A DNA stretch of 64,000 nt, taken from positions 82,900,255 through 82,964,254 of the forward strand of contig CATQJL010000223.1 in the NCBI GenBank assembly GCA_958299035.1. Reading direction: 5' to 3'. Below the pieces are notes generated by a model. It was not told where the DNA came from. It did no database searches and was given only the letters and a program-made list of their open reading frames with translations. Shown here piece by piece: positions 36,537 to 63,505 of the stretch (the first letter of the stretch is position 1; each line of letters opens with the position of its first letter). The stretch comes from Cylicocyclus nassatus. Its lineage: Eukaryota > Nematoda > Chromadorea > Rhabditida > Strongylidae. A program made the translations under genes and the position numbers.

Positions 36537-38723
36537 CAACATATCAACACTGCAGTCCCTCAGTCCGAAAACGAAAAAACGGCTAGAGTCACCGTTTTAG
36601 GTAATGCTCAGGTCTCTTCTAACGCCATCGAACTCCTGAGCCTAGGGCCTTCTTTCGCACCTTCTCAAAACATAAGTGCTAGGACGTATCGCAGTGCATT
36701 GGGATCGTTACAAAGATTGCGAGATCAGCTTAGGGTTAGATTGAAACAGCAAAATCAACCGCAACTAGCTGATGCTCTGAGTAGACGTACATTGCCACCT
36801 ATACCGTTTCCATGTTCGTTCTATAAAGAGCCTGAACCATACGCCGTCGCGGACATCAAGTTTCGGATATTATCATTGAGCATCTTGAAGGTCCTCAATG
36901 ACAACAAAGCCATAAAAAATTACAACTTGACACGCGCGCAACAGCTAGGTCTCAAAGAATTAAAAGAAATGACTAACAACGGTACCATCAGACTATCGGT
37001 TAGTGATAAAGGCAGAGAATTCATTGTCATACCGCAAAGCCTCGACCGCAAGATAACCGAAATTCATCTGTCTGATGAGACTTTATACCGTTGTACAAGC
37101 GAAAAAGAATTTCTCTCGCAGTGCAAAAGGTTGAACCATGTATGGACGATGATAGGTAGAGAAGCTGGTATACACGAAAAATTCCTCAGTAGACTGAAAC
37201 TAGAAACACCCACTTGCCCTGTATTCTACAGCTTAATCAAGACGCATAAATTTTCTGCGAACGAAATGCAATCCGCATCCGCAAACTCCTATAAGATACG
37301 ACCTATCGTCAGTTGTACAAACGGGCCAGCCGATCGCATATCGTGGTTCCTTGCTAAAATTGTTGGCCAACTCTTAGATAAAATACCCGCCCACTTGAGC
37401 AATACTAATCACTTCCTTGAGCTTTTGCGCCAAACGAACTTCACCTCGAACTGTGCAGTCGAATCGTTTGATGTCGCATCATTATATACAAATGTATCTA
37501 ATGAAAAGGCCTTACAAGCCTTGTCTGAGCTACTCGAATCACATGGCACATCCATGTCAACATATGGTCTCAGTAAATCGCGCATCATGACGCTTACCGA
37601 GGAATGCGTAGATTGCAATATTTTCAAATGGTCGGGTAAATATTATGCACAGATAAGAGGGCTAGCAATGGGCCAACGATTAGCACCTGTTCTAGCTATT
37701 TGCTTTATGAGCAAAATAGAGGAACCGGTGCTTCTCAGAGGCCCGCTTATGTATTGTCGTTACATTGACGACTGTTGTATCGTCACAAATACACAGTCTG
37801 AAATGGACGAATGTTTTAGATTGCTAAATCACCAATCACAATACATAAGCTTTACAAGAGAAAAACCACGCGACGGCTGGCTACCCTTCTTGAACACCCA
37901 GCTGAAGTTGGTCAACGGAGGGGTTCAAGTCAAGTGGTTTCGCAAAGAAAGTAATAAGAATATCATCTTGAACGCCAATTCCGCACATCCAGAAGCTGTC
38001 AAACGTGCCATCGTTCGCAACATGTACAAAACAGTAACAAATATCTGCAGTGGCAAGAACGAAAGGCAAGAGTCATTGAAACTGGCAGCTAAAATTATGG
38101 CCTCAAACGGATACACTATACGGCCCAGACGATCAAAAAGAAGTGCAATAAGAGCAAGCGAACATGATACTAACAGAATACCTTTGTGCTTACCGTACAT
38201 CTCCGAAAGGGTCACTACAGCAATCAAACAATGTCTGACACAGGCGCAGCTTGAGAAAGACGTTGTCTTAGTGAATATCCCGCAAGACAACATTAAAAAG
38301 CAGTTAGTACGTAATAGACTGTACGATAGAGCCTGTGTTTCACGAAATTGCGTAGTTTGCCCATACGGAAGACCTGGAGACTGCGCAAAATCTGGCGTGG
38401 TGTATCAAATTGAATGCATCCAGTGCTCCGCCATCTATATAGGTGAGACTGGGCGGCCATTGAGTGTGCGCATAAGTGAACATTTAGCTAGTAAGAAACG
38501 GCAAAGCATAGTAAGTCCACTCGGAAAACATAGAATGATAGAGCACGGTGGTACTGACTATAACATTAGGTGCAAGATCTTGGCTTACGAACATCAGATT
38601 TCTGCACGGAAAGCCTTGGAAGCTTCTTACATCCTTGCCCGCGATCCCAAACTGAATGGCAAGAATGAGAAATTGTCTATAACGAGTGACTTGATGCCAT
38701 ATATATCATACTGTAATCTATAA
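36537..38723 (+). CDS. Penelope-like reverse transcriptase with C-terminal GIY-YIG endonuclease
   Basis: An uninterrupted frame of 728 codons from 36537 to TAA at 38721. In order: an N-terminal region (SLGPSFAPSQ, then DKGREFIVIP), RT motif 1 PVFYSLIKTHK, motif 2 KIRPIVSCTNGPADR, motif A SFDVASLYTNV (Asp codon 37470-37472), motif B GLAMGQRLAPVLA, catalytic YIDD (37761-37772), and the thumb. Then Cys-rich CVSRNCVVCPYG and a GIY-YIG nuclease VVYQIECIQCSAIYIGETGR with SVRISEH and ALEASYI. All catalytic residues seen are intact. There is no in-frame ATG before 36969, inside the conserved region; the true start may come from an upstream exon or a mutated codon. Its role is target-primed reverse transcription of the element's own RNA. 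Confidence 0.9.
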   Translation, partial: QHINTAVPQSENEKTARVTVLGNAQVSSNAIELLSLGPSFAPSQNISARTYRSALGSLQRLRDQLRVRLKQQNQPQLADALSRRTLPPIPFPCSFYKEPEPYAVADIKFRILSLSILKVLNDNKAIKNYNLTRAQQLGLKELKEMTNNGTIRLSVSDKGREFIVIPQSLDRKITEIHLSDETLYRCTSEKEFLSQCKRLNHVWTMIGREAGIHEKFLSRLKLETPTCPVFYSLIKTHKFSANEMQSASANSYKIRPIVSCTNGPADRISWFLAKIVGQLLDKIPAHLSNTNHFLELLRQTNFTSNCAVESFDVASLYTNVSNEKALQALSELLESHGTSMSTYGLSKSRIMTLTEECVDCNIFKWSGKYYAQIRGLAMGQRLAPVLAICFMSKIEEPVLLRGPLMYCRYIDDCCIVTNTQSEMDECFRLLNHQSQYISFTREKPRDGWLPFLNTQLKLVNGGVQVKWFRKESNKNIILNANSAHPEAVKRAIVRNMYKTVTNICSGKNERQESLKLAAKIMASNGYTIRPRRSKRSAIRASEHDTNRIPLCLPYISERVTTAIKQCLTQAQLEKDVVLVNIPQDNIKKQLVRNRLYDRACVSRNCVVCPYGRPGDCAKSGVVYQIECIQCSAIYIGETGRPLSVRISEHLASKKRQSIVSPLGKHRMIEHGGTDYNIRCKILAYEHQISARKALEASYILARDPKLNGKNEKLSITSDLMPYISYCNL

Positions 38724-43729: not shown

Positions 43730-43735
43730 TAATTT

Positions 43736-44455
43736 TATACTATACCAATGCGTCACCTCTGCTTCGCAGAGGTTCGCACTGGCTCTACTATCTATGTGCC
43801 TTACTCATTCTCGTAAAATCGTGGCACTGGAACTCACCGCGCTATGCCGACTACCACGAATAAAATGTAAACAACCACTCATTTAGAAAATCTTTTCACG
43901 TGAAATCGGTGATTTCGCGCGGATGAAACTTTTCACAGGAAGACAGACGCAAATTTGAATAGGTTTTGGATTTGTCATGACTTGGTAGTCGCCATAAAGG
44001 TAATGATAACCGTGAGCTACATCTCTGTGCGAAAATCTTCTCAAACGCTTAGCCAGAACCTTGGAAAATTGACCATTTACACAACCAACTCGTTTTGGCG
44101 CCGTTTTCGTTACGTAGAAAACTTTCGACCACTTTTCTGGCTAAACTCCATCGCTTGCACATTTGCTTACCAAACTCATCCACGACTCTGCAAAAAGTGG
44201 TGATACGGACCGAATTTTGTGGTACAGAGGACAGGTGGACCCGTTCGGCGCGCAATTTCTGAGGGATCCACTCAACGAATCTACTCATGCTTTTGCATGT
44301 TGGACTTTCACGAAGGTAGCATGCGCTATACAAAATTTGGGCTTAGAACGCTGGCTGGAACACTCTCCACGAATTTCGTAACAGACACACAAACACACAC
44401 ACAAAGTCACGTAAACATTCTTAGCCCGTTATTATAAGTCATGATAAATACAAAT
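43736..44455 (-). repeat. TCTGTC-family repeat, minus orientation
   Basis: On the minus strand it starts near AACGGGCTAAG, has TGTGTGT runs and CACGAAATTCG, and ends in the hairpin CCTCTGCGAAGCAGAGG followed by GACGCATTGG. Other copies: 45640-46345, 46380-47062, 55080-55740. Confidence 0.65.
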
Positions 44456-45338: not shown

Positions 45339-45639
45339 TATTACACATTCTACATAAAAGCACAAGTTATAGTTAATTGATGTGATATATGTCTTATACT
45401 AGTCTTCAATTAAGCTATTTCATACGATCCTAATCAATAGCACATATCATTAATCAGTATAGTTATTTCGATACACATCTACTACAAACAACCAATTTAG
45501 TAAAGTAGTCTATCAAAATGACCAATATCATAATAAATAAAATCAACTACAAAAACACTAACATGTTTCATTTTCTTTAGTCTACCAATATGGTCACTAC
45601 TATAGTTTATAGTATATGATCAATATCATAACTTATAAT

Positions 45640-45662
45640 AACGGGCTAAGGATGTTTACGTG

Positions 45663-45701
<39 letters not shown>

Positions 45702-46345
45702 GTTTGTCTGTCCGTCACGAAATTCGTAGAACACCTCCTGAGCCCAAATTTTGCACAGCGCCTGCTACCAACATGAGAGTCTATTACACAAAAGCACGAG
45801 CGGATCCGTTGTGTGGATCCGTTAAAAAACGCGCGTCAACCGGATCCACTTGGCTTTTGGCCAGTAAAATTGAGTCTGTAGCGCAACTTTTTGCAAATTC
45901 ACAGATATGTTTGACAAGTTAATGTGCAAGCCATGGTCTTTAGCCTAAAAATTGAACTAAAGTTTATTACTTTGCGAAAACGACGCCAAAAAGAATTGGT
46001 TGCGTAAATGTTCAATTTGCCAAGTTTCTACCCGATCGTTTGAGAAGATTTTTGCACAGATATGTAGCCCACGGCGATTGTGCCATCTTATCGCGAATAT
46101 CAAGCCATGAAAAGTCCAAAAACCGATTCAAATTTGCATTTGTTCTTTCGAGAAAAATTTCGTTCATGCGAAATTACCGATCTCATATGGAAAAGCTTTT
46201 GGAATGAATAGTTGTTTACAAATCATTCGTGATAGTCCGCATAGCGCGGTGAGTTCCAATGTCATTATTGTGCGAGAATGAGTAAGGCATATAGATAGTA
46301 GGGCCAGTGCGAGCCTCTGCGAAGCAGAGGTCAAGCACTGGTATA
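45640..46345 (+). repeat. TCTGTC-family repeat, plus orientation
   Basis: A (GT)n run at 45668-45698, GTCTGTCCGTCACGAAATTC, and the closing hairpin CCTCTGCGAAGCAGAGG then CAAGCACTGG. Its upstream TATAATAACGGGCTAAGGAT mirrors 44425-44450. Confidence 0.65.
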
Positions 46346-46379
46346 ATATATCATATATTCTTATCATGACTTATAATAA

Positions 46380-47062
46380 AGCACCAAGCGTCTGTCTTTT
46401 TGTGCGTGTGTGTGTCTGTATGTCTGTCTGTCACGAAATTCATGGAGGAAGCTGCAGCCAAGCTATCGAGCTCCAATTTTGCATAACATACCGCACTAGC
46501 ATGTAGGTCCACTATGCACAAGGACAGTCGGTTCGATGAACGGGCCCATAAAAATTGGCGCGTTAAACGGGTCCAAGCGGCTTTTGGCAGGCGAAACTAA
46601 GTCGCTAATTCGACTTTTTGCAAAGTCATGATTTGCCTGACACGTAAATCTGCGTGCCATGAATTCCAGCCCAAAAGATGTTCAAAAAGTCTGTTCATCT
46701 GCGAAAACAGCGCCAAAAAAGGTAATCGCGTACATAGTCGATTTGGCAAGGTTTTACCTCGAATTTTGAAAGGATTTTTGCACGGAAATGAACTCAAAGT
46801 GACTATTATCCTTATAACAACTACCAAGCCAAAACAAATTCAGTAATCCATTCAAATTCGCATTTTTCCCTCGGCAAAAAAGTTTTTTCTTAAAATTACC
46901 CTTACATGGAGATGCTTCAAAAATGAACAGTTGTTTAGGATTCATTTGTGATGTTCAGCATCACGTGGTGAGTTTCAAAGTCATCATTATGCGAACATGA
47001 GGAAGGCATACGGAAGGAGCCAGTGCGTCACCTCCGCGAAGCGGAGGTGACGCACTGGTTAT
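46380..47062 (+). repeat. TCTGTC-family repeat, second plus copy
   Basis: TGTCTGTATGTCTGTCTGTC, CACGAAATTCATGGAGG, and the closing CACCTCCGCGAAGCGGAGGT with compensatory changes in the hairpin stem (CTCCGCGAAGCGGAG instead of CTCTGCGAAGCAGAG), then GACGCACTGG. Confidence 0.68.
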
Positions 47063-47080
47063 ATATAATAAAAGACGGAG

Positions 47081-47087
47081 TATAAAA
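47081..47087 (+). promoter_or_regulatory. TATA-like box upstream of the ribozyme
   Basis: GAGTATAAAAGC lies about 80 bp before the hammerhead parts. It is a good match to a TATA box but unsupported by other promoter evidence. Confidence 0.3.
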
Positions 47088-47161
47088 GCTGTAAGTTGTT
47101 AAACTTCAACTATTTCAACAACATTCAAATTTTATCTAAAACTATTTTGAAATATACAGGA

Positions 47162-47247
47162 CTCATGAACTCTCCTTCCTTACTGATGAGTTCCGGGGAG
47201 AGTTCTGAGCTCTTTTACTCCGTCTAAGGACAGGAACGAAACGGAGT
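47162..47247 (+). ncRNA. hammerhead ribozyme with permuted strand order (two kissing hairpins)
   Basis: All conserved parts are present. Core strand TCCTTA (47177-47182), CTGATGA (47183-47189), GTTCC (47190-47194) lies in the loop of a hairpin closed by 47167-47175/47197-47205 (9 bp, extended by CTCA/TGAG). A second hairpin, 47217-47223/47241-47247 (ACTCCGT/ACGGAGT = stem III), has in its loop C17 (47224), TAAGGA (47225-47230, complement of TCCTTA = stem I), CA, GGAAC (47233-47237, complement of GTTCC = stem II) and GAA of GAAA (47238-47241). Predicted cleavage is after C47224. The linear order is strand 2, 1, 3 rather than the usual circular order 1, 2, 3, so the fold is a pseudoknot. Confidence 0.66.
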
Positions 47248-47249
47248 TA

Positions 47250-49157
47250 GATTAGTTCACTGCAAAATTGATTCCCATGTTAAACAACTTATGGTACCAC
47301 ATCTTGTATATAACTATCTCTATTTCTATTTCTATTTCTATTAGTGCCACTTAAAACACAAATATGTAGGCCAACCAGCCAACCAATCGAGCTCTTTTTC
47401 TCCTTTTCATCTCTGAGAAATGATCAAGAACTCAAATGGATTCCTGCTTAGTGTTGTTATGCTTTAAAAAGTTGGAGATACCACCATGCTGGTTAATTTC
47501 ATCAAATCAAAAGAACGTTATGCCTTTTACAAAAGAAAACCATTTGGTTCCAAGAACTAATCCAATCTTTTTTCTCTTTATCGTATTGTCACCAAACATT
47601 TGCCGCTTTCAACATTATATTGGGTGTTGAATTTGAATGGCATCAGATCACTTTGACCGTTACTAAATTTTGAATATACTGGAGTACTAGTGAAACAAGG
47701 GGTCGCTGCAGCAGCACTTATAGATGTGATATTTTTTACACCAAAGATGTCGTTCTTCATACTCAGTTTCATATATGAGGTCGTAACCGTTCATCTCAGT
47801 CATATTTCAATATTTCATATTGCCAGCGCAGAAGTAGTGGGATTTTGGGCCACTTCGGATCCGAAAAGTGTAGGACAGATAGAAGAGCTTTCAGAAAAGG
47901 AAAAGAGAAGATCTTGGAAAGCTTTTTCGAAGAAAATTTTGTGAGCGAGAAATAAACTGTAAACAGTTTTAAATGAGGATTTAAGGAGATAAAAAGTGCC
48001 TGGACTTTGGCGATTCGAACCTTGGCAATAAAAAACCAAAGTATGTGCTCTAAAAACGTGGAACGGGATATTGAGAGCAGTTTGCCCCATTTAAGATAGT
48101 GGAGGTGAGGGGTATACCGTGGCTGGGCAGTCACGTAAGTACAGCTGACTCTCGAAAGTGTGGAAAAACCTGCACTTTGGTCAGGAATTCCTGAGCGTGG
48201 AGCTCTGGAAAGCGCTGAAAACTCTTGCAAAGAGTAAAGGTCATTTCAGGTAGGTGAGAGATTTCGAGATAATGCATTGAGATGAAGATAACTATAGAGT
48301 AATAAGACCGAAAGCAGGGCTCAAACGAAAAGTGCAAAATATTTGAAAAACTTCATAGAGAAAAAAAGAGAAAATTTTATTGAAAATTTTCTCAGTCACT
48401 CTAACCTTTATTACTCCTCTAATCTTTACTAGAAGGAAACGAAAAGGAGGGGTGCGAGGGGGGGGGGGGAGGGAGATGCTTGAACTAGGGAATAGAGGAA
48501 AAACGGCACACACATGAACATAATGAGCATTATACGTTAATGCTCCTGGATGGTACAGAATGGGTAAGGGGTACTACGGCAAGGATGGAAAAGGCCTGTA
48601 GAGAGTAGGCAAGCTACTGACATGTTTGCTCAAACTTCGGCACAGAAAGATTGTGGAGCTAGGAGAAATAATAAGGCATGGGGCAGTTTTAGCCCATATT
48701 AGCTAATGAGCTTTTGATTTTTTTTGAAAAAGTTTGCATGGTGGGAGCTAACTTCTAGCCAGTGCTTTCCACATAAGGAATGCGAGCTTGGAAGATGCCA
48801 TACTGTCGGCGAGGAATATCTATGCAACAAATTTCAAAAGTTTTTATCATAATTTGCCTTTTAAGTTGGTAAAACCTTTTGCTTACATTTGGAATTATTT
48901 ATTTCTTAGAGTTAACTATAAATAATAAGTCAAGCTCTAGTTTGAAAAACTGCATTCCGCAAATCTGCTGAGTCAAAAAAGTCCTATGATATCTTGATAG
49001 AGGTCAAGAAAAAGAGCGCTCACCTTTGATCTTCAACAAAAACGCAGAGATCTTCACTGGAGTTGCTATTTGGACGGACGGCCTCATCTAAAACAAAATG
49101 GCGTAAACTACTGTTGTAAGATAGGCAGTGGATTGAAGCTTGTCAAAATATGCTATA
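47250..49157. other. no gene; microsatellite and tRNA-box-like scraps
   Basis: (TCTATT)n at 47318-47343. On the minus strand near 48012-48030 a B-box-like AGGTTCGAATCGCC occurs without a foldable tRNA. A poly-G run lies at 48459-48470. Open frames are unremarkable. Confidence 0.4.
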
Positions 49158-54680: not shown

Positions 54681-55079
54681 TCGGGCAGTCGAATGTAGAA
54701 TGATGTGACATTGTGTAAGTGATCAAAGTAGTCAAATTTCTGCCATAATTACGGTAAAAGTAGAAAAAAAAACGTCTGGTAGAATCAATTTGACATGTAA
54801 ATGGAAGTAAGTAAGTTCGTATAGTGCATCCTGTGTCATTTGTTCGTAATAAAGCTGGCATCAGTGTAGCCAAGGTAGCAGAACTCCATAACACAATACA
54901 AGAAGGACCGATGAGAGAGTTGACCAAATAAGATGAAATTCAACTGAAATAATACGCTTTAAAAGGGTAGATGTGATTTTTCACCTTCGGTCAATATGAT
55001 CAACTTAGCCTTCAAAGAACGTGCACAGCGTGAAGCAATTAAATCCTTGGGTAAGAGCTAGATATTAAAGAACTTAGGC
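54681..55079. other. no gene seen
   Basis: A minus-strand frame near 54670-54927 has no recognisable motif. Confidence 0.3.
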
Positions 55080-55740
55080 CGTCTGTCTGTTTGTCTGTCT
55101 GTGTCTATATCTGTCTGTCACGAAATTTATATAGAGAGTTGCATCAATTTTCTCTAGCCACAATTTTGCATAACACACATCACCAGTACGGAGGTCCATA
55201 ACGCAGAAGCATGAAAGTATTCGCTGAGTGGAAGATACGAAAACTGCGAAACAGACAGGTCTACGCGTTGGCCTGCAATATTGGAGCGGATAGACTTTTT
55301 GGAAAGTCACATATATATATTTGACAGATTCATCTGCAAACAATCGACTTTAGCTTAGAAAGAATGCAAAAGGTCTATTTTCGCAAAATTGGCGCCAAAA
55401 AGGAATGATTGCGTAGATTATCAACTTGTCGAGATTTTACTCAAAAAACAAAATAATCTTGCTCAGAGGTTTATTTACGGTGGCTATCGGTTAGGGTGAG
55501 GATCAAGCCAAGATATATAAATTCAATAGCTGATTCAAACTTGCATCTGTTCTGCAGACGTTTTTTCTTCCAAAGTCACAAATCTTAGAAGAAGTTCTGG
55601 TAACTGTTTACAATTGATTCGTGATGGTCATCACTGCGCCGTGAGTTTCGAAAAAGTCATTATGCCAGCACGAGGAAGGCCTGCGGATTTTAGGGCCAGT
55701 GTGCGAACCTCTGCGAAGCAGAGGTGAAGCTCTGGTAAAC
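55080..55740 (+). repeat. TCTGTC-family repeat, third plus copy
   Basis: GTCTGTCTGTTTGTCTGTCT, GTCACGAAATTTATATAGAG, closing hairpin CCTCTGCGAAGCAGAGGTG and AAGCTCTGG. Confidence 0.65.
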
Positions 55741-61929: not shown

Positions 61930-62806
61930 TCAGAGCCCGAAGGCGGCCCAGGCTGCTATTCTTCTCCTGTTAAGTTCTTTCCTCAGGTCCTTCTCCAAAT
62001 TCATCGAACGTCCGAGATACACGTAAGAAGACGTCTCCATAATAGGGGTGCCTTCCAATTCCATTTCTGCATCTTTACAAAGGGCGTTCTTCATGAACTG
62101 AGTCTTCTTCCAATTTATTTGCACTCCGATCTTCTTCCCTACCTCGTTTAGTTCCTTCAGCATCGTCTCTGCTTCGGTGATACTGTTCGAGAAGAGAACG
62201 ATGTCGTTCGCAAAACAAAGGTTCGACAGGAATCTCCCATCAACTCGTATGTCTCTCTCGTCCCAGTTTAGTGACTTCATTACCCACTGCAAGGCCGCGG
62301 TGAACAGCTTCGGCAAAATAGTGTCGCCTTGTCGAATCCCCTTCCCAATTGGAATGGTTAGGGGGCGATGGAATAGCTGCATCGTTGTTGTACAGTCCTT
62401 GTAGCAGTCGGCTAGTGTCCTCACGTAAGCTGGTTCCACTCCTTGATCGACTAGCGCTGACAGAATGACGTTGGTTTGGACGCTGTCAAAGGCTTTCTCG
62501 TGGTCGACAAAGGTTAGGACGAGAGGCAGTCGGTAATCCTGGCAGACTTCTATAACCCTCGAAACCGTCTGGATGTGTTCCATGCAGTTGAATCCTTTGC
62601 AAAATTCAGCTTGTTTTTGGGATTGGGCTTCATCCAGTGTCCTAGATATGCAAGCGAGGATAATCTTTGTGAAAAGTTTATAAATAAATAAATAAAATAA
62701 ATAAATAAAAGTTTATACAGCACACTAGGCAGGCATATTGGACGGTTGTTTCGAAGATCTTCCCGTTCACCCTTCTTGAAAAGAAGGACGGTCTTGATGT
62801 TCTCCA
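61930..62806 (-). pseudogene. RTE reverse transcriptase domain, inactivated
   Basis: Minus strand: LTFVDHEKAFDSV (motif A, Asp codon 62503-62505), GKGIRQGDTILPKLFTAALQ (motif B), LCFANDIVLFS where the catalytic FADD has become FAND (codon 62206-62208), and YLGRSMN. Upstream, RPICLPSVLYKL is separated from the rest by a 35-bp AAAT-repeat insertion (62672-62717) with an 11-bp duplication AAAAGTTTATA. Active-site loss and insertion make it dead. Confidence 0.86.
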
Positions 62807-63505
62807 CTAGTCGGGAATCCTTTCCTTCTGAAGGTAAGATGTTAGGTGCGACGCGAGAATCTCGTGTAGACGTTGTCCTCCAGCTCGCAGAAATTCGACG
62901 CAAAGATGGTCTGGTCCTGGAGCCGTGGACGTCTTCATGGCTTGATTCGCCGTGCGCACTTCAGCAGGTAGAATTCGTGGTGGTACCTCTCCAGTGGGAA
63001 CAACGGTCATCGGCACGGGTCTTGATGAGCGGAAGAGGTTGGTATAGAAGTTCTTCGCGATAGATTCCATCTTGTATCGGGAAGAAGTCGGAGTCCCGTC
63101 TTCGTTCAATAGTGCAGCCAGCGGTACGTGATATTCGCAGAGGTCCCTTCGGCACTTCTTGAAACTTCGTTTTTCTTCGGCTGCTTCCAGTATATTGGCT
63201 TGTCTATACCTCCTAAGATCCTCGCGCAAAGGTGTTCTGCAACTGGCAATAGCTATCAGTCGCTCGAGACAGGTTGCATTCGAATCTATCCTCAGAAATC
63301 TTCTTCTTTCCAGCAATTTTTGGTGATCTTCAAAATTCGTTCCAAGTTCTTCTCAGAAGCCACAAAGGCGCACTTTCCGCGGCTTGCAATCCTTTAAGCC
63401 GGTCGTAGTTGTACGTTGGGTCCCTTCGATAAGCCAGTCACAACTTGATATAATCTTCTTCAGCCCCTTCTTGCGGCACCGTGGCAAGCCTTCTTTTGCA
63501 GCTTT
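62807..63505 (-). pseudogene. RTE linker between nuclease and reverse transcriptase
   Basis: Open for 62807-63316: EEKRSFKKCRRDLCEYHVPL, LLNEDGTPTSSRYKMESIAK, FYTNLFRSS, and EVRTANQAMKTSTAPGPDHL (the conserved APGPD block before RT). Joined with frame breaks to the nuclease part upstream. Confidence 0.8.

Follow-up and report, generated by a model that had tools for sequence, protein, structure and literature searches.

What is formed by the stretch at 47167-47247 of the plus strand of the window (the whole 64-kb stretch of DNA analysed, C223:82900255-82964254), in which all strands of a hammerhead ribozyme are present but follow one another in an order that is not a circular permutation of the usual one, and to what does it belong? 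The reading favoured here is a functional hammerhead of type CSG belonging to a Penelope-like retroelement (PLE), to which we assign a probability of about 0.86.

The motif was read from the letters and its pairs were checked by script. Every conserved hammerhead nucleotide is present together with four helices, I (6 bp), II (5 bp), III (7 bp) and IV (9 bp), and all 27 pairs are Watson-Crick, in agreement with an earlier sequence-only reading that had listed all invariant hammerhead parts and perfect stems of 6, 5 and 7 bp. A U176-G196 wobble could be added to helix IV beyond its nine Watson-Crick pairs, and the linkers are U176, GG195-196 and CA231-232. The features used below are:

45600-45640, plus strand: part of the retroelement copy to the left of an insertion of about 1.4 kb (45641-47058)
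47059-47346, plus strand: 3' part of the same retroelement copy, placed by repeat alignment, with a (CTATTT)n tail at 47320-47342
47073-47081, plus strand: upstream arm, complementary to 47217-47225 (9 bp) and competing with stem III
47167-47205, plus strand: hairpin 1, in which helix IV (47167-47175/47197-47205) closes a loop with block C; the covariation set shows both-sided changes at 6 of 10 pairs
47177-47194, plus strand: block C, made of the stem I 3' strand (47177-47182), CUGAUGA (47183-47189) and the stem II 5' strand (47190-47194)
47217-47230, plus strand: block S, made of the stem III 5' strand (47217-47223), the predicted cleavage nucleotide C47224 and the stem I 5' strand (47225-47230)
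47233-47247, plus strand: block G, made of the stem II 3' strand (47233-47237), GAAA (47238-47241) and the stem III 3' strand (47241-47247)

The CUGAUGA strand thus comes first, followed by the cleavage strand and then the GAAA strand, with stem I formed by 47177-47182/47225-47230, stem II by 47190-47194/47233-47237 and stem III by 47217-47223/47241-47247. A scan of both strands for stems of at least 3 bp around CTGATGA in any block order gave C-S-G as the sole strong combination in the window; the next-best stem combinations (4/5/4) were far below it, and none of the orders of types I, II or III (CGS, GSC or SCG) was found at comparable strength. The non-circular order claimed in the earlier reading was thereby confirmed. 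The core has the form CUGAnGA, GAAA and an NUH site, here GUC with its C at 47224, so that a cut would be predicted at 47224/47225. In the nested fold of 47160-47260, helix IV is present together with the region of six of the seven stem III pairs, and the ribozyme fold therefore amounts largely to the nested fold plus loop-loop pairing. As isolated duplexes, stems I and II were calculated at about -4.9 and -4.7 kcal/mol.

This topology had been thought possibly undescribed, which does not hold. Eckert, Friedrich, Weinberg and Weinberg (2023, NAR 51:2850, PMC10085705) split the hammerhead into three blocks, C, G and S, and reported three non-circular orders: type SGC, with 583 predicted sequences; type CSG, with two metagenomic DNA sequences (CSG-1 and CSG-2) that cleave in transcription at the expected site, at rates of 0.004 and 0.03 per min; and type GCS, for which they had a single weak candidate. 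It is to their type CSG that the window motif belongs. Compared by topology and not by letters, it shares with CSG-1 and CSG-2 the C-S-G order, the full core, stems I-III and a helix tying stems I and II; it differs in having a PLE as carrier, in residing in many copies in the genome of an animal and in its strong covariation, whereas CSG-1 and CSG-2 are metagenomic DNA sequences with no known carrier. Type-SGC hammerheads are also non-circular and also have a helix between stems I and II (PMC10085705), but the window motif and its 23 relatives described below are all CSG. In the accessible parts of the open-licence literature, no CSG hammerhead placed in an animal genome or in a retroelement was found, which is a weak absence given the scope of that literature, and nothing was found there that treats Penelope-like, Naiad and hammerhead together. 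What is new is the regular occurrence of the CSG type in permuted PLEs, with many copies in the genome of an animal; the topology was already known.

The carrier was identified from other copies of the repeat. The element copy in the window is split by some 1.4 kb made up of two other repeats. Two copies, L346 and L353, have an open 963-codon frame for an intact 963-aa protein upstream of the motif. Pfam placed GIY-YIG at 92-176 and RVT_1 at 654-816 of the L353 frame, and GIY-YIG alone passed in L346. The element is classed as a permuted PLE on two observations, the position of GIY-YIG N-terminal of the reverse transcriptase in L353 and the head-to-tail arrangement of copies (3 of 3 spacers, see below). 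Naiad/Chlamys-type permuted PLEs, reportedly described by Craig et al. in 2021, are said to have GIY-YIG before the reverse transcriptase, and the present element is likened to them by this domain order and not by a reverse transcriptase tree. Other Penelope-like elements, and retrozymes, carry small type-I hammerheads. The hammerheads of types I, II and III, those included, share with the present motif the core and an occurrence in mobile elements with tandem units, but differ from it in block order. A protein search with the element ORF gave 14 matches, 13 of them across most of its length, on short contigs of which one is labelled a bacterial MAG; a profile search with the element protein gave 13 matches, none beyond those of the protein search. 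At E up to 0.1, 7 of 10 relatives had GIY-YIG and 6 of 10 had RVT_1, and in all four relatives with both domains GIY-YIG came first.

The genome (514,686,895 bases) is likely that of a strongylid nematode, to judge from the closest relatives of the protein of the window's other PLE (36699-38723). The element protein matched it in at least 53 places (47 scored of 4382 candidates), and 3' flanks were read for 23 copies with 48-90% protein identity; the 30 other matches, which were left out, were copies more than 90% identical, pieces ending before the ORF end and some others, including three at 89-90%. A CSG hammerhead was present 3' of the ORF in all 23 diverged copies, in the first 0.9-1.1 kb after the ORF in 18 of them and in the next 1.2 kb in the other five. 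Among these five, the frame of L367 is broken and the match of L368 ends early; the motif assigned to L367, which lies in L385, has the 64% family type and may be that of a neighbouring copy. Helix IV is the part that varies most between families. Stem III is 3 bp long in L360, and in the 48% family (L377, L378) stems I and III differ and the cleavage site reads GUA. In the remaining three of the five (L370, L372 and L374), simple repeats (ACATACAC-like or GCAACAT-like) take up over 800 nt between the ORF and the ribozyme.

The window and 19 diverged sequences were combined into a covariation set of 20 rows, 18 of them distinct. In this set 97.6% of cells were paired, and 11 of 28 pairs and 48 cells were changed on both sides, values reached by none of 500 shuffles; with the partners slid by 1-3 columns, at most 56.5% of cells, 2 pairs and 5 cells, respectively, were obtained. 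The both-sided changes fell in helix IV (6/10 pairs), stem I (2/6), stem II (1/5) and stem III (2/7). A measure of further pair types showed no excess over the 20 rows (21 against a shuffle mean of 21.2). The order of the three blocks, the core, stems I-III and a helix that joins stems I and II are found together with covariation, as type CSG demands. The two kissing hairpin loops and the fourth helix, which the sequence-only reading had proposed on structural grounds, are thus upheld, with nine Watson-Crick pairs in helix IV, and its view that the hammerhead is natural proved right as well: the homologous copies that it had asked for in a nematode genome exist, and they covary in all four helices.

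Still more distant relatives were sought by a scan of prokaryote genomes with a protein profile, which gave four loci (L354-L357) in microbial MAGs at 31-32% identity. All four have open PLE frames of 921-1013 codons, on contigs deposited as bacterial or archaeal MAGs, which most simply suggests eukaryotic contamination. Next to proteins of 31% identity, L354 and L355 carry CSG motifs 3' of the ORF whose sequences are unrelated to the window motif: stems I-III are 4, 5 and 15 bp with a helix IV of 11 bp in L354, where stem I lacks its fifth and sixth pairs, and 6, 5 and 10 bp with a helix IV of 12 bp in L355. The L355 motif has one U inserted after CUGAAGA; it was missed by the strict scan and spotted by eye, and one inserted nucleotide after CUGAnGA was then allowed post hoc, in the shuffles likewise. 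The standard set by L354 and L355 was reached 0 times in dinucleotide shuffles (48,664 per flank). When the two were pooled with the 20 rows, both-sided changes were found in 5/6 pairs of stem I, 3/5 of stem II, 5/7 of stem III and 10/10 of helix IV. L357 has a likely hammerhead of SGC order at L357:3342-3410, approximately 0.35 kb 3' of the PLE ORF, with stems of 6, 3 and 4 bp, a helix IV of 7 bp and the site GUA. It is a weaker case than L354 and L355, because its standard was matched in shuffles of the same number (13 times in the L354 flank and once in that of L356, 0 times in those of L355 and L357), because stem III has 4 bp and because three helix IV pairs are G-U. No motif was found in the 366-nt flank of L356. 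There may thus be two non-circular orders, CSG and SGC, in one PLE clade.

The position of the ribozyme within multi-unit arrays was assessed in the spacers of three pairs of adjacent copies that lie on one strand; the close pair at C112:26980687 and C112:26988365, a fourth, lay outside this sample. In all three, the 3' end of one copy with its tail is followed by about 1.6 kb of 5' UTR and then by the next ORF start, so that the ribozyme sits immediately ahead of the point where one unit joins the next head to tail. The three spacers showed no second hammerhead. The starts of L346 and L353 differ from the predicted 3' cleavage product; both copies are 5'-truncated, since about 1.6 kb of 5' UTR precedes their start point, and they lend no support to 5'-end processing. 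Separately, a strong hairpin leader lies directly after each head-to-tail junction (L386:97-181 and the equivalent positions past the tail in L387 and L388, in element orientation); it folds at -31 to -32 kcal/mol for 85 nt, the fold is kept between two families, and no Rfam match to it was found.

From these observations the following course of events may be proposed. The type-CSG hammerhead is very probably a regular component of a clade of permuted PLEs. One hairpin, closed by helix IV, would present the CUGAUGA strand, and a second one, closed by stem III, would present the cleavage and GAAA strands; the two loops would pair with each other to form the side-by-side stems I and II of a pseudoknotted hammerhead core, which would cut after C47224. 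Both self-cleavage of the window motif and the position of the cut are expected here by analogy with other hammerheads. As the motif lies near the 3' end of the element, just before the unit junction, such a cut could release unit-length RNA from multi-unit or read-through transcripts. The formation of unit-length RNA through cleavage has been proposed for other ribozyme-bearing retroelements. For the processing role in transcripts taken by itself, we consider the odds about even.

The head-to-tail units also permit a different use of the same strands. In a tandem transcript the cyclic order C-S-G-C-S would by this reasoning allow block C and its own block G to combine with block S of the next unit (C1-G1-S2), which gives the type-I order with no pseudoknot, so that cleavage would take place in dimers or in trans. 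However, sequences with no relation to one another retain the 2-3 nt linkers between S and G as well as a helix IV linking stems I and II, and neither would be needed by a distant partner, which counts against such an arrangement. The published CSG monomers, moreover, cleave in vitro (PMC10085705). Cleavage between units is accordingly considered improbable, and the monomeric CSG ribozyme is retained as the preferred reading.

In the genome, the query 47100-47300 gave at least 41 matches (40 scored of 644 candidates). The alignment consisted of 40 rows, the window and 39 places, the window self-match and a 32-nt piece adjoining another match being omitted; L307 duplicates the entire neighbourhood of the window (98% across 3 kb) and was then dropped from the counts, which left 39 rows, the window included. 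A duplicate of this neighbourhood lies about 110 kb away in L300 (C223:83055582-83058776), with about 98% identity across 3 kb. In the 39 copies, 56 of 3150 sites (1.8%) of the motif were off the majority, as were 260 of 3925 (6.6%) in the upstream and 125 of 2215 (5.6%) in the downstream flank. The core was intact in 33 of 39 copies, and the core and every pair in 20; the other 19 had at least one broken pair or core change. The copies are of common ancestry, and counts over the 39 rows are therefore not independent. A hammerhead-derived fold that lost cleavage and serves the element otherwise, e.g. as a binding site for its reverse transcriptase, would be suitably located, since target-primed reverse transcription would be expected to start close to the 3' end. 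The catalytic nucleotides, however, would be needless for such a site, yet the 23 diverged copies retain them, as do L354 and L355, and across the 39 copies changes affect only 6 of 468 core cells. We regard a non-cleaving fold as unlikely, slightly more so than cleavage between units, and prefer the active ribozyme.

The expectation by chance depends strongly on the standard applied. Watson-Crick stems of at least 6, 5 and 7 bp in C-S-G order within 80 nt are expected 1.9e-10 times per window by analytic calculation, and on adding a helix IV of at least 9 bp the expectation falls to 3.6e-14. A lax standard (segments around CTGATGA from a first-order Markov model, site GTC, G-U allowed, any split of at least 18 pairs, within 80 nt) gave 3 events in 1.9 million simulated segments, or 2.1e-5 per 64-kb window, a figure which over the whole genome is not compelling alone. 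The reality of the motif is settled instead by its copies, that is, by the 40 aligned rows of the repeat and the 23 of 23 diverged copies. Although three stems alone, at the lax standard with G-U, are not vanishingly rare genome-wide, a chance origin of the pairings, or a shuffling of the segments by faulty assembly, is ruled out for practical purposes. The expectation with helix IV is 3.6e-14, and the same order recurs in copies spread over six large contigs, in every one of the 23 diverged copies and in two records that come from other assemblies.

Motifs of this kind are missed by current Rfam models. No hammerhead was matched in the window at gathering scores, in 30000-64000 of the window at E up to 10, or in L346, L353-L357 and L386-L388 at E up to 1, and Pfam gave no match on ten ORF stretches near the motif. 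Scans of viral contigs with the C-S-G pattern gave 18 stem combinations with stems of at least 3 bp among at least 298 loci; these were taken as chance, as the best among the matches listed had 16 pairs and a helix IV of only 2. An exact piece of blocks S and G had 0 matches in prokaryote contigs and 0 in viral contigs, and none among 29 stretches of viral contigs encoded a relative of the element protein.

A possible control of the ribozyme was observed upstream of it. An 18-nt inverted repeat (47073-47090/47208-47225) is paired at 16 of 18 positions, and its 9-bp part, the upstream arm, covers the cleavage strand. Each pair of the arm is kept in 36/38 to 39/39 copies, and no such arm was found up to 500 nt upstream in L354 or L355. 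In the nested fold of 47060-47270 the arm displaces stem III; this fold reaches -52.4 kcal/mol, and the one on which helix IV and stem III are imposed reaches -44.9 kcal/mol, loop pairing not counted. Without the arm, stem III is favoured in the nested fold. It may be speculated that the arm acts as an off-switch of the ribozyme. A wider proposal, for and against which we see the balance as roughly equal, is that non-circular hammerheads (CSG, joined by SGC in one or more relatives) would be the standard ribozyme of the permuted-domain PLE clade, spreading with the elements, cutting near head-to-tail junctions, restrained by the upstream arm in one lineage, and the source of the orphan metagenomic CSG sequences.

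With a retroelement as its carrier, an orphan RNA form becomes an element component whose history can be traced via the linked protein. Three questions thereby become testable: how the strand order of an RNA can change naturally, for what reason a retroelement retains a pseudoknotted ribozyme, and whether replication is served by its place before the unit junction.

Links of the motif to two other elements of the window were considered. A repeat of roughly 0.7 kb has four copies in the window (45674-46355, 46390-47070, 43735-44447 on the minus strand, and 55062-55736), two of them inside the ribozyme-bearing element, and ends in a near-perfect GC-rich hairpin (47020-47058); a link of the motif to the copies just upstream was rejected, the repeats being read as an insertion into the element. 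As a side observation, reverse transcriptase ORF stretches at 61930-63316 (minus strand) look like a non-LTR retrotransposon, on the basis of 61930-62583; Pfam gave no match on 62807-63316. An ordinary PLE lies at 36699-38723 (plus strand), with an open 674-aa frame in which RVT_1 is followed by a C-terminal GIY-YIG; a link of the motif to it was rejected on account of this C-terminal position and the distance of 8 kb. Its closest protein is from Ancylostoma ceylanicum (66% identity), with Haemonchus and Necator next.
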